Source of the DNA: Bdellovibrionales bacterium
GTDB lineage: Bacteria; Bdellovibrionota; FAC87; UBA2466
Direction of reading: 5' to 3'
Assembly (NCBI GenBank): GCA_005776395.1
Contig: SXPJ01000071.1
Location: forward strand, 1-64,000
DNA length: 64,000 nucleotides
Part shown: piece by piece, positions 29,565-36,549 of the stretch
How positions within the stretch are numbered: the first letter of the stretch is position 1
Layout: every line of letters begins with the position of its first letter
Program-made: the position numbers and the translations under genes
Notes under the pieces: model-generated
Seen by the model: only the letters and a program-made list of their open reading frames with translations
Databases searched by the model: none
What the model was told of the DNA's origin: nothing

Positions 29565-29638
29565 TATTTAATCGCTGAGTCATTGAATCCTTCGGAAGAG
29601 TGTGGATAGACCCATCTTTTTTGGTTATTCTTATAGAG

Positions 29639-30979
29639 ATGCTTAATTCAAAACTTACACATGTTATCACTTTTGTTTTATTTCAATGGATCACTTTGGC
29701 CTATTCATTTGGTGATGTGGGCGAACCTTGTGCCAAAGTGACAGGGATGTTCGGGATTGTTAGTTATAATCAGGGCTACAATATAACTAATGATCAAAAA
29801 CTGAATCAAGGTTCCGAAATCAGAACGGGAGAGAATTCAAGAATTGAACTCGTTTTGAAAGACAAATCTATCATTGAAATAGGTGACAACTCTCAGTTCA
29901 CCTTAACCGCTTGTGAAATCATTCAAGATTCAAATAATATAAATTTGGAACTTGAGTTTGGAATCTTACGGGTAAAAGTTTCTAAGGATTTTAAAAGTCA
30001 AAGGCGAGAATTTAATTTAAAGACACCTACCTCAGTTCTTGGAGTTCGCGGAACTGAGTTCTACGTTATTTGGCAGCAGGATTCCTCTGGCATTGTGGCT
30101 GAAAGGATCTCGGTAAGTGAAGGACAAGTTGAAGTCACCTCTCTCTTTGATCAAACTAATCCTTCTTTACTGATAGAACACGGAAATGAGTTTCGGGCGG
30201 AAGGTAAAATTCAGGACTTAGGAGCTGAAGCAAGTCTTGAACCTATTGGTTCTCCTCAAATTGATACATTTACTTCATCTGAGCGAGAGGAGCTAGAAGA
30301 GTATTTTCAGCTAGAGTATGTCCGCTCGGAGGAATCCTCTGAAAATATTGAGAGAGGTTTGGATTCTAATCTGGAAGAGAAAACACAGGAAGAGGAGGAG
30401 AGTGGAATCGATTTTAAACATGAAGATGCATTCATTGATAATTATGAGGCTATTCGCAGTGAGCATTATGTAAGACGAGCTATTCTTTCAACCATTGTAA
30501 ATACTATAGGTAAATTTGAGTTTAATCGAATCTATCTCAACCACTTGATGGGCTTTAGTTCAGTTTATCAACAGCAAACAGGGGCTATTAAATTTACAAA
30601 ATATACCTCTGGAATGCAGGGCCTTTCAGTGGGATATGTGACTAATAAAGGACATGCTTTTGAGTTGGGGCTAGAGGTTTCTGCAGTCAGTAATATATTT
30701 GGGGGGTATCGATATATTTGGCGACCTGAAACTTTTTCACTTTGGCCTTTTGCGGGGATTGGAATAGGAACGGAGATCAGTTCAGTAAGACTTTCTCAGG
30801 GCCCCTCTGAAGCAGAGAGCTATGGTCGTTTAGGCGGAATAAAGCAGATGGGCTTTGGAGCGCTCGGAGTTTTAATTCCTATTGTAGAGGTTGGAATTAA
30901 AGCTGAAGTAAGGTTTACCTTTTATGGATTAGATCGAATGGTTTTAAGTCAGGGAGTGGGTCTAATCGTCTTTCTTTAA
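29639..30979 (+). CDS. FecR-domain protein with C-terminal barrel-like domain
   Basis: 446 residues from the ATG at 29639, which gives a signal peptide ending near ITLAYSFG. Residues about 30-150 form a FecR domain (GSEIRTGENSRIELVLKDKS, then TPTSVLGVRGTEFYV). A Glu-rich linker follows, and about the last 170 residues are alternating hydrophobic strands ending in VGLIVFL, which suggests an outer-membrane barrel. There is no sigma factor or TonB receptor nearby, so this is not the classic FecIRA system. The stop codon overlaps the convergent neighbour by 4 bases. Confidence 0.75.
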   Translation: MLNSKLTHVITFVLFQWITLAYSFGDVGEPCAKVTGMFGIVSYNQGYNITNDQKLNQGSEIRTGENSRIELVLKDKSIIEIGDNSQFTLTACEIIQDSNNINLELEFGILRVKVSKDFKSQRREFNLKTPTSVLGVRGTEFYVIWQQDSSGIVAERISVSEGQVEVTSLFDQTNPSLLIEHGNEFRAEGKIQDLGAEASLEPIGSPQIDTFTSSEREELEEYFQLEYVRSEESSENIERGLDSNLEEKTQEEEESGIDFKHEDAFIDNYEAIRSEHYVRRAILSTIVNTIGKFEFNRIYLNHLMGFSSVYQQQTGAIKFTKYTSGMQGLSVGYVTNKGHAFELGLEVSAVSNIFGGYRYIWRPETFSLWPFAGIGIGTEISSVRLSQGPSEAESYGRLGGIKQMGFGALGVLIPIVEVGIKAEVRFTFYGLDRMVLSQGVGLIVFL

Positions 30980-33558: not shown

Positions 33559-36549
33559 ATGAGTAAGCAGATTTTGGTTAATTTTAGCCACTATGAGACG
33601 CGGGTGGCTACCCTGGAGAATGGGGAAATACGCAGTCTTCACATAGAACGTGAAGAAGATAAAAATGTTGTTGGAAATATATATTTAGGGGTTGTTAAAA
33701 GAGTTTTACCAGGAATGCAGGCTGCATTTTTGGAATTAGGACTGGAACGAACTGCCTTCTTATATGTGGATGACATTATCGATCAACCTTTTGGTGGGGA
33801 TTTTGATCTGCTTGAGGAAGATTCATCTGTTGAAGGTGAATCTACTGAGCTAGGCGCTGAAGATGATGGAGAGCCTCTCAAAGAGAGCTATGATGAAGAG
33901 GTTGAATCGGAAGAGGGACGTCAAAAATGGGAACGGGATGTCACTGAGATTTCTGCTAAAGGGGCTGTGACGGTTAACCCTGCCTCGACTGAGCCAGTAG
34001 TAGCCCCTACTGAAGAAACTGAAGAGTTTTTTGAAAAATCTCCAGAAGAGAGAGCCGAAGAGTTGGTGGAAACTGCTCAAGAAGATGAAAATAGCGATGA
34101 AGATGAGTTGCTCTTTGAATCTGAGGATACAGCCGAGGATGAAGAGGAGAGTGATGAATCCGATGAAGATATCGAAAGTGATGAAGATTTTGAAGAGGAT
34201 GAAGAAACTGAGTTTGAAGATGAATTAGAAAACAAAGAAGAGGCTCCCCCAGAAGCGAAAGCCGTTACTGAGCAAGTTCTAGAAACCAAATCTGAACCTG
34301 TTCCTTTTGAAGCGAAAGAGAGCCAAGTTGAAGCTAAGACATCTGAAATTCTTGCTGAAGGTTCTGAAACCCAACCTAAAGAATCAAGACAACCTGATTA
34401 TCGAAATGAAAATGAAAACGATAATTTAGGAAATCGGATTAATAGTTCCCGTGGTAACTCAGAAGAAGGACGCCCTCGCGGTAGAAGTTGGGGAAGAGGG
34501 GGACAAAGACACTCGTCATCTCGCCCAGATTCACATCGAAATAATCGAAATCGAAATTCTTACGAAACACGTGATCGACAAGGTAGAGATAGGGATTACA
34601 ATCGACAAGATGAGTACAGGGCCCCTAGTGATAGGGAGTCTTCCTATTCAAGAGAGGCTCGAGAAGGCTATCGTTCAGAGTCTTATCAAGAGAGAGGCAA
34701 TGATCGGGAATCTAATCGAGGACAAAATAGAAATAGAGGATTTCAAGACAGGGATCGCTCCGATCGTGACAGAGACCAAAACCAAAACCGAGATAGATCG
34801 GACTATAGGGAGCGTTCCGATCGTGATAGAGACCAAAACCAAAACAGAGACAGATCAGACTATAGAGATCGTTCCGATCGTGATAGAGATCAAAACCAAA
34901 ACAGAGACAGATCAGACTATAGAGATCGTTCCGATCGTGACAGAGATCAAAACCAAAACCGAGATAGATCGGACTATAGGGAGCGTTCCGATCGTGACAG
35001 AGATCAAAACCAAAACAGAGACAGATCAGACTATAGAGATCGTTCCGATCGTGACAGAGATCAAAATCAAAACAGAGACCAAAACAGAGACCAAAACAGA
35101 GACCAAAACAGAGACCGATCAGACTATAGAGATCGCTCCGAGTCTCGAGAACGAACCGAGCGTGATCCAAGGGACAGAAATCGCCCTTTAAGAGCTCAAG
35201 GCAGAAATAATCGAGACCGAAATACTAGAGACCGTGGAGGTCAGGAAAGTAATGAGGGGGGACGTCGTTCACCTCGCAGACCTCATCATCATACTGGACG
35301 GCCAAGAAATAATCGACGATTCCAGAAACGTCGAACTCGTGGTAGCGCCAATATTCAAGACCTTTTGAAAGAGGGACAAGAGATTCTAGTTCAGGTTGCG
35401 AAAGCTCCAATTGGAACTAAGGGAGCTAGACTTACAACTCACATTAGTCTTCCGGGGCGTAATTTGGTTCTCATGCCGACAGTGAAGCATCTTGGAATTT
35501 CCAGAAGAATTGAAAGTGAGCGAGAGCGGCGAAGACTACGAGATATTTTTACAAAGAGACTTCGTCCAAAGGATGCAGGTTTTATTATTCGAACTGTAGC
35601 TGAAGGTAAGAGTTTCAGAGATCTCAAAGCTGATGCGGAATACTTATTAAAAACATGGGCTAGAATTAAACGAGACTCTAAAAAGAAACGAGCCCCAGCT
35701 TTAATTCACGAAGATCTTTCTCTTTCAATGAGATCGGTTCGAGATTTCTTTACTGAAGAGGTGGACTCTTTTGTGATCGATAATGCCGAGGAACATGAAA
35801 ATGTACTCCAATTTATCGAACAGTTCATGCCACAGCTTAAGAACACTGTAAAACTTTTCAAAGGTCCTTCTCAGTTATTTGAACACTATGGAATTGAAGC
35901 TGAGATTTCGCGGGCTTTAAATAAAAAAGTTTGGTTGAAGTCTGGAGGATACCTTCTCTTTGATCAGTCCGAGGCTTTAACGGCAATTGACGTCAATACA
36001 GGTCGTTATGTGGGTTCTAAAAGCTTGGAAGAGACTATTCTCAAAACGAACTTAGAGGCGGTTAAAGAGATCGCATATCAGCTTAGGATTCGTAACGTTG
36101 GGGGAATTATCATTCTTGATCTTATCGATATGGAATCGATGGAGAATCGAGAAAAAGTTTATCAGGCGTTACAAGAGGCTCTTAGTGAAGATAAATCTCG
36201 AACTAACATCTTAAAGATCTCTGAACTGGGTCTAGTGGAGATGACTCGCAAGAGAACACACGAAGACCTGATTCGTTATCTCACAGAAGCTTGCTCGATT
36301 TGTGAAGGACGTGGTTATCACAAGAGTAGACGTACAGTCTGTTTTGAAATCTTCAGAGAGATCGAAAAAGAGGCTATATCAAACACCAAAAATATTGTGG
36401 TGTTTGCCGCTCCTGCAGTTGTTTCTCGTATGATGAATGAAGAGAAAAAACATGTGGCCATGTTAGAAGAGCGATTCGGCAAGAAGATTGCTGTTAAACA
36501 GGATCCTGTTTTTCATGTCGAACAGTACGAAGTATTTGGTAAGCACTAG
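33559..36549 (+). CDS. RNase E/G family endoribonuclease with giant disordered insert in the S1 domain
   Basis: 996 residues. The conserved body is RNase G-like: an S1 domain begins at residues about 38-73 (GNIYLGVVKRVLPGMQAAFLEL), breaks off, and resumes at about residue 598 (ILVQVAKAPIGTKGARLT); then come the RNase H-like and DNase I-like parts with metal ligands Asp811 (AIDVNTG) and Asp854 (ILDLIDM), and the Zn-link Cys912/Cys915 (CSICEGRGY). It cuts single-stranded RNA in mRNA decay and rRNA/tRNA processing. The insert of about 520 residues is acidic at about 90-235 and Arg/Asp/Asn/Gln-rich at about 308-594, and contains tandem repeats. It has no C-terminal scaffold region of the E. coli RNase E type. 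It is a single-gene unit. Confidence 0.9.
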   Translation: MSKQILVNFSHYETRVATLENGEIRSLHIEREEDKNVVGNIYLGVVKRVLPGMQAAFLELGLERTAFLYVDDIIDQPFGGDFDLLEEDSSVEGESTELGAEDDGEPLKESYDEEVESEEGRQKWERDVTEISAKGAVTVNPASTEPVVAPTEETEEFFEKSPEERAEELVETAQEDENSDEDELLFESEDTAEDEEESDESDEDIESDEDFEEDEETEFEDELENKEEAPPEAKAVTEQVLETKSEPVPFEAKESQVEAKTSEILAEGSETQPKESRQPDYRNENENDNLGNRINSSRGNSEEGRPRGRSWGRGGQRHSSSRPDSHRNNRNRNSYETRDRQGRDRDYNRQDEYRAPSDRESSYSREAREGYRSESYQERGNDRESNRGQNRNRGFQDRDRSDRDRDQNQNRDRSDYRERSDRDRDQNQNRDRSDYRDRSDRDRDQNQNRDRSDYRDRSDRDRDQNQNRDRSDYRERSDRDRDQNQNRDRSDYRDRSDRDRDQNQNRDQNRDQNRDQNRDRSDYRDRSESRERTERDPRDRNRPLRAQGRNNRDRNTRDRGGQESNEGGRRSPRRPHHHTGRPRNNRRFQKRRTRGSANIQDLLKEGQEILVQVAKAPIGTKGARLTTHISLPGRNLVLMPTVKHLGISRRIESERERRRLRDIFTKRLRPKDAGFIIRTVAEGKSFRDLKADAEYLLKTWARIKRDSKKKRAPALIHEDLSLSMRSVRDFFTEEVDSFVIDNAEEHENVLQFIEQFMPQLKNTVKLFKGPSQLFEHYGIEAEISRALNKKVWLKSGGYLLFDQSEALTAIDVNTGRYVGSKSLEETILKTNLEAVKEIAYQLRIRNVGGIIILDLIDMESMENREKVYQALQEALSEDKSRTNILKISELGLVEMTRKRTHEDLIRYLTEACSICEGRGYHKSRRTVCFEIFREIEKEAISNTKNIVVFAAPAVVSRMMNEEKKHVAMLEERFGKKIAVKQDPVFHVEQYEVFGKH
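34756..35133 (+). repeat. 57-bp tandem repeats in the RNase E/G insert, with a 12-bp sub-repeat
   Basis: Unit starts fall at 34756, 34813, 34870, 34927, 34984 and 35041, each 57 bases apart; each unit encodes 19 residues with consensus RDRSDRDRDQNQNRDRSDY. The sixth unit is 36 bases longer because CAAAACAGAGAC occurs four times in a row (35068-35115). Copies differ at only a few bases, so the array is recent or homogenised. Confidence 0.95.

Follow-up and report, generated by a model that had tools for sequence, protein, structure and literature searches.

RNase E scaffolds have been described as C-terminal, and the studies of RNase E condensates used alpha-proteobacteria. Alpha-proteobacterial and plant RNase E also carry inserts of 50–150 amino acids (aa) in the S1 domain (PMC4245959). 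The Caulobacter insert binds the helicase RhlB and extends to the RNA site, into which its helix protrudes with acidic side chains proposed as RNA mimics, and deletion of the insert from Arabidopsis RNase E lowers activity (PMC4245959). Alpha-proteobacterial condensates (bacterial ribonucleoprotein bodies, BR-bodies) need a C-terminal intrinsically disordered region (IDR) with alternating charge patches (PMC10412687, PMC12691583); alternating R/D peptides alone did not phase-separate, whereas blocky R/D peptides did so with RNA and poly-Glu (PMC9324279). Here we analyze a stretch of 64,000 nucleotides (nt) from a Bdellovibrionales bacterium (assembly GCA_005776395.1, contig SXPJ01000071.1, positions 1 to 64,000 of the forward strand; hereafter the window) in which an RNase E/G gene carries a 524-aa insert, predicted to be disordered, in the same loop of the S1 domain. 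The insert is a real and extreme form of this known feature.

The S1-domain insert and its composition

The gene (33559..36549, + strand) is an open reading frame (ORF) of 996 aa present in a single copy in the genome. Its place in the RNase E/G family is indicated by TIGR00757 (score 482.7, cut-off 325.95), which matches in two stretches, by PF10150 (347.7 vs a cut-off of 25.5, E 6e-104), whose match begins at residue 630, and by PF20833, the RNase E/G thioredoxin-like domain. PRK10811 scores 301.5, below its cut-off of 908, and the RNase G equivalog PRK11712 gives the best NCBIfam score, 523.9, yet remains under its cut-off of 594. The tail that follows the small domain is 4 aa long, and the protein thus has no large non-catalytic C-terminal scaffold of the kind that defines RNase E sensu stricto. 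Residues D811, N813, D854, C912 and C915 are invariant in 35 aligned sequences, and we take them to have the catalytic (acidic residues) and zinc (Zn-link cysteines) roles assigned from knowledge of the E. coli enzyme. No Rfam family, for example the rne 5' untranslated region element, matches the gene region at gathering score.

The boundaries of the insert were set with hidden Markov models (HMMs) iterated over relatives, which separate an N-terminal part (residues 1–73, 33559..33777, +) from a C-terminal part (residues 598–992, 35350..36534, +). The former ends in the first S1 half (~38–73), as also indicated by alignment to E. coli RNase E, and has predicted local distance difference test (pLDDT) values of 81–95. 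The latter, delimited as well by profile matches and an AlphaFold model, comprises the second S1 half, the 5'-sensor, DNase I-like, Zn-link and small (thioredoxin-like) domains and is followed by the last four residues. Between them lies the insert, residues 74–597 (33778..35349, +). A first-pass annotation had described an S1 fold that starts at residues 38–73 and resumes near 598, with the insert at 33784–35346, and the HMM boundaries agree with it to within two codons. When the insert is deleted from the query, the protein aligns to E. coli RNase E (2bx2, 5f6c; E ~1e-37) without interruption across the junction, a site at which the E. coli enzyme has ~18 residues between FLPLKEI and NIKDVLREGQ, and the second S1 half matches Caulobacter 4OXP from chain residue 157. 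The loop is that of the alpha-proteobacterial and plant inserts, of which the alpha-proteobacterial ones were rightly said to be smaller. Foldseek of the full model confirmed the RNase E/G fold family, with matches to E. coli RNase E and, over part of the model, to 4OXP, the Caulobacter S1/5'-sensor fragment. The global root-mean-square deviation is ~20 Å and the modeled domain arrangement is unreliable; we therefore drew on the model neither for the position of the insert with respect to the RNA channel nor for the packing of the two S1 halves, which we base on the sequence alignment.

The insert begins with an acidic block (residues 74–270, 33778..34368, +) in which Glu exceeds Asp and the net charge per residue (NCPR) is −0.345; residues 90–235 are 45% D+E (NCPR −0.38). 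It continues with an Arg/Asp/Asn/Gln-rich mixed-charge region (residues 308–594, 34480..35340, +) made up of 30% R, 17% D, 11% N, 8% Q and 0.3% K (one Lys in 287 residues), with a fraction of charged residues (FCR) of 0.53 and an NCPR of +0.08. Composition thus bears out the two halves first read from the sequence. With R and D dominant, NCPR near zero and Lys depleted, residues 308–594 have the properties of an arginine-rich mixed-charge domain (R-MCD), and the preference for Arg over Lys in the second half of the insert is significant against the protein's own core (Fisher p 1.4e-13). Disorder is predicted by two approaches: in the Uversky (charge-hydropathy) plot all parts of the insert fall on the disordered side and both flanks on the folded side, and in the AlphaFold model, built from a 35-sequence alignment, residues 77–593 have pLDDT < 50 and most flanking core blocks 80–95. 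The insert is therefore charged and disordered (FCR 0.47–0.53, pLDDT < 50) like its alpha-proteobacterial and plant counterparts, whose 50–150 aa it exceeds.

The first-pass annotation had further called the insert charge-patterned and likened it to the Caulobacter IDR. The first part stands, as the charge split between the two halves (0.30) is larger than in any of 5000 shuffles (maximum 0.21). The likeness does not extend to blockiness: the R/D half has a kappa of 0.068, below its shuffles (z −3.1), and because it is mixed better than chance, as a polyampholyte, "alternating charge blocks" is the wrong description for it. The insert pairs a single acidic block with an R/D region that is well mixed, and the protein has no C-terminal IDR with alternating charge patches of the BR-body type.

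Several shorter elements lie within the insert (all +). Alignment with two sequences of the genus (L032, L035) reveals conserved islands at 33859..33942, namely EDDGEPLKESYDEEV (33859–33903) and RQKWERDV (33919–33942), both candidate docking motifs, and at 34015..34065, where ETEEFFEKSPEERAEEL may form a short helix or docking motif (a short helix at 162–165 is modeled with low confidence); none of the three is common to the sister genus. The R/D region contains 5.7 tandem copies of a 57-nt unit (19 aa, SDRDRDQNQNRDRSDYRD/ER; 34753..35079) and 4.1 copies of a 12-nt unit (QNRD; 35068..35116), both found by repeat search. Among five copies of the 57-nt unit, 6/7 variable sites are synonymous (p 2e-4, sites treated as independent). 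The exact repeat number in this draft genome could be wrong. Two other frames here, 34451..35191 (+) and 34712–35170 (−), were rejected as genes, both being frame shadows of the repeats (the first a compositional one). The insert ends in a basic hinge, NEGGRRSPRRPHHHTGRPRNNRRFQKRRTRGSA (35251..35349), that is near-identical within the genus. The last 20 aa before the second S1 half carry a net charge of +3 or more in 69/81 long inserts vs 7/43 short linkers; an acidic start is present in short linkers too (34% D+E in the first 20 aa). At L148, L158, L177 and other loci of families f8 and f13 the insert ends in a strongly conserved EF(R/K)EQR(G/S)RDRRIKSK, unlike the RRFQKRR hinge in the family of the protein studied here.

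Relatives and the companion tail on PNPase

Relatives carry inserts at the same site that differ widely in length. Those of the genus measure 479 and 577 aa and those of a sister genus 361 and 381 aa; other members of the family have 59, 89 and at least 271 aa. In the phylum as a whole (69 genomes) the range is 15–577 aa, and 31 inserts exceed 150 aa, the greatest length published for alpha-proteobacteria and plants; several Myxococcota have S1 inserts of 226–460 aa. Since the same-site inserts occur in independently assembled relatives (L032, L035, L036, L040) and throughout the phylum, the insert is real; these inserts and the uninterrupted frame rule out misassembly or a frameshift as its source. 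The expectation that position would be kept while sequence varies was borne out: within the genus, core identity is 93–95% and insert identity 45–56%, and the repeat units differ from species to species. All family members tested show a strong excess of Arg over Lys in the latter half of the insert when compared with their own cores (Fisher p 6e-3 to 1e-13). Of 81 distinct inserts that reach 50 aa, 75 place acidic before basic sequence. We see here evidence of selection on the composition of an insert whose sequence drifts.

Some individual relatives deserve mention. Sorangium cellulosum (L106) has a 460-aa S1 insert of RE-rich repeats (REGREAREG type) and no C-terminal tail; this Arg-rich mixed-charge insert looks convergent. 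In L158 (family f13), which has a 260-aa insert plus a tail, the insert is predicted to be disordered too, and a helix predicted at 862–882 in its tail, absent from the 996-aa protein, is a possible degradosome docking element. In two metagenome-assembled genomes (MAGs) a frame change interrupts the acidic part of the insert (L033, frames at nt 1319 and 1815; L038, nt 3781 and 4353), by assembly error or slippage-based variation. In G085, a single-contig genome of family f6, RNase E/G matches fall in two distant pieces, C1:533462-534055 (−) and C1:876351-876635 (+), each with a stop, from a gene that is split, rearranged or misassembled.

The same survey bears on the suggestion that the scaffold had moved from the C-terminus into the S1 domain. 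Bdellovibrio-type families have neither a long S1 insert nor a C-terminal tail, and sister families have both, a 230–440-aa insert plus a 190–370-aa tail. Only 6/69 genomes have both an insert that reaches 150 aa and a tail shorter than 10 aa, 5 of them in the family of the bacterium studied here. Because of the families with both and with neither, the scaffold has not demonstrably moved; rather, the S1 loop grew in a tail-less lineage.

The RNA-decay set of the genome includes one RNase E/G, one PNPase and one RNase J, and neither RNase Y nor a second RNase E is found in it. The PNPase, whose gene lies outside the window (G000:C79:16202-18811, −; loci L184/L255), has a frame of 886 aa that ends in a C-terminal tail of 182 aa. 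In this tail Arg makes up 27%, Asp 20% and Lys 0.5% (FCR 0.56), a composition close to that of the R/D half in RNase E. The tail, disordered, R/D-rich and unusually long for a PNPase, has repeats of its own (RQDRPERQDRGP) and an acidic C-terminus, RDDED, that is echoed in relatives. Wherever the PNPase C-terminus of a family member was read, it formed such an Arg-rich tail, and in the surveyed phylum PNPase frames are longest in this family and its order. The boundary between acidic and R/D sequence is marked in RNase E by DNLGNRI (34420..34440, +), and the PNPase tail has GNRI where its own acidic and R/D sequence meet; G002, a relative, carries GNRS there in both genes. This parallel change is suggestive, though a single event. 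Genome-wide searches for further R/D-rich domains returned no match to a strict RDRDRD pattern, PNPase only for the GNRI pattern, and only PNPases at E 0.01 with the PNPase tail as query; low-complexity handling may hide other matches.

The lengths of the two proteins are correlated as well. RNase E and PNPase frame lengths give a rho of 0.63 (131 genomes), or 0.68 over 23 family medians (p 3e-4), and measured insert length against PNPase-tail length gives 0.77 (69 genomes), with r 0.45 (p 1e-4) in phylogenetic contrasts. IF-2 length, taken as an unrelated disordered control, is uncorrelated with the insert (raw rho 0.12), and rank contrasts on the same tips separate PNPase (0.49) from IF-2 (0.19). 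Co-evolution of insert and tail is plausible from these comparisons. Within genomes, the two regions also match in composition (9 genomes, p 0.046, relatedness uncorrected), a result that was not used as evidence.

Possible functions of the insert

We propose that the disordered region borne by the S1 domain is a tether or scaffold that replaces the missing C-terminal scaffold, concentrating RNA and, through like composition, PNPase; we rate this proposal at an even chance. The enzyme would act as the organism's general RNase E/G, with 524 disordered residues in one loop of the S1 beta-barrel taking the place of the C-terminal degradosome scaffold. In a tetramer, the RNA channels would have four inserts around them. 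Near the active site, RNA may be tethered by the basic hinge and the Arg-rich half; the acidic block may compete with it for either the channel or that half, which would limit promiscuous binding. The R/D region and its PNPase counterpart would then concentrate endo- and exonuclease by weak multivalent or condensate-type interaction, with short docking motifs, particular to each lineage, perhaps adding to this from the acidic half; the proposal is also compatible with autoinhibition by the acidic block and with docking of a helicase. That the insert could reach RNA and partners is suggested by the Caulobacter insert, which binds RhlB and the RNA site, and by the effect of the Arabidopsis deletion on activity. 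By analogy, if the organism forms BR-body-like condensates, the S1 insert is a natural candidate for their driver, and the 200-aa acidic block with the net-positive hinge may give some large-scale blockiness.

Several observations weigh against this proposal. The R/D half is well mixed (kappa 0.068), peptides of alternating R and D failed to phase-separate on their own (PMC9324279), and alpha-proteobacterial condensates require the C-terminal IDR (PMC12691583). The association between insert and PNPase-tail lengths amounts to ~6 changes of insert state, for which an independent-pairs test is without power, and ordinary contrasts on the same tips are close for PNPase (0.40) and IF-2 (0.38). In addition, the longest PNPase tails occur in two members of the order whose inserts are short (89 and 114 aa), so the one length does not fix the other. 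A stronger form, a like-with-like degradosome in which the S1 R/D region co-assembles with the PNPase R/D tail and brings RNA and both nucleases to the entrance of the active site with no C-terminal scaffold involved, is conceivable, though we consider it doubtful.

The insert might instead serve only as an intramolecular gate and RNA tether, with the acidic block mimicking RNA in the channel and the hinge binding substrate, so that catalysis or specificity is tuned without scaffolding or condensation. The Caulobacter insert, with its helix in the RNA site and its proposed RNA mimics (PMC4245959), is a precedent for such a gate, and the acidic start of even the short linkers and the basic hinge that marks long inserts also speak for it. 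This account leaves ~290 R/D-rich residues and a matching PNPase tail unexplained, and we regard it as rather improbable.

Docking is a further candidate role: the insert would be mainly a set of short linear motifs that recruit degradosome components, such as a DEAD-box helicase, and the R/D repeats would act as a spacer. The three genus-conserved islands are suited to this, Caulobacter again offers a precedent (PMC4245959), and the genome encodes one classical DEAD-box helicase, its gene truncated at a contig end. Nevertheless, the islands differ in the sister genus and AlphaFold predicts no structured microdomain; a pure docking platform is unlikely.

The insert could also be an inert entropic bristle, a permissive surface loop lengthened by replication slippage and tolerated. 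Repeats that differ between species, family lengths of 59–577 aa and the frame changes in the L033 and L038 inserts would all fit slippage. The synonymous bias between repeat copies, the R-over-K bias in every family member tested, the conserved islands and hinge, the phylum-wide order from acid to base and the convergent RE-rich repeat in Sorangium argue otherwise, and tolerated expansion is the least probable of these biological alternatives. An assembly or annotation artefact, which poorly assembling repeats in a draft genome might invite, is scarcely credible given the uninterrupted frame and the like inserts in relatives.

Elsewhere in the window (29600-30979, +) a 459-aa protein, judged from sequence, has a FecR-type-looking N half (TPTSVLGVRGTEFYV) that an acidic linker joins to a beta-rich C-terminal half.

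Comparison with known systems

The only large disordered region of this RNase E/G lies within the RNA-binding fold, exceeds the published S1 inserts several-fold in length and has a make-up that recurs on PNPase. No report of such a large insert was found in the literature searched, although reviews of RNase E types may mention large S1 inserts in these phyla. The first-pass annotation had put the locus forward as its best candidate for an undescribed system. S1 inserts as such are already described; unusual are the size of this one, the lack of a C-terminal scaffold (4-aa tail), the conserved order from acid to arginine and the R/D-rich PNPase tail, a companion to the RNase E insert that is undescribed. 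Because the phylum offers natural variants with the insert only, with insert and tail, and with neither, the need for a C-terminal scaffold position can be asked directly. The same variants allow one to ask if compositional matching alone can pair two enzymes.

The nearest relative in kind is the S1 insert of Caulobacter crescentus (PDB 4OXP; PMC4245959) and of other alpha-proteobacterial and plant enzymes, which occupies the same place in the S1 domain, is highly charged, predicted to be disordered and variable in sequence, and adjoins the RNA-binding site. The insert described here differs in its 524 aa, its acidic-then-arginine order, its R/D repeats and its conserved basic hinge. Moreover, Caulobacter and Sinorhizobium RNase E additionally have a C-terminal IDR, which this enzyme lacks. 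That IDR, which drives BR-bodies (PMC10412687, PMC12691583), resembles the insert in its long disordered Arg-rich and acidic stretches and in having PNPase as partner exonuclease; here, however, the region lies inside the S1 domain and, in place of several alternating blocks, has a single acidic block followed by R/D sequence that is well mixed. E. coli RNase G shares the short C-terminal end but is without a long S1 insert, and the enzyme here is the sole RNase E/G of its genome. The R-MCDs of eukaryotic speckle proteins such as SNRNP70 (PMC9324279) are alike in the dominance of R and D, near-neutral charge, few Lys and good mixing; with no sign of shared ancestry, the region here is bacterial and is placed within an enzyme fold, after a 200-aa acidic block.

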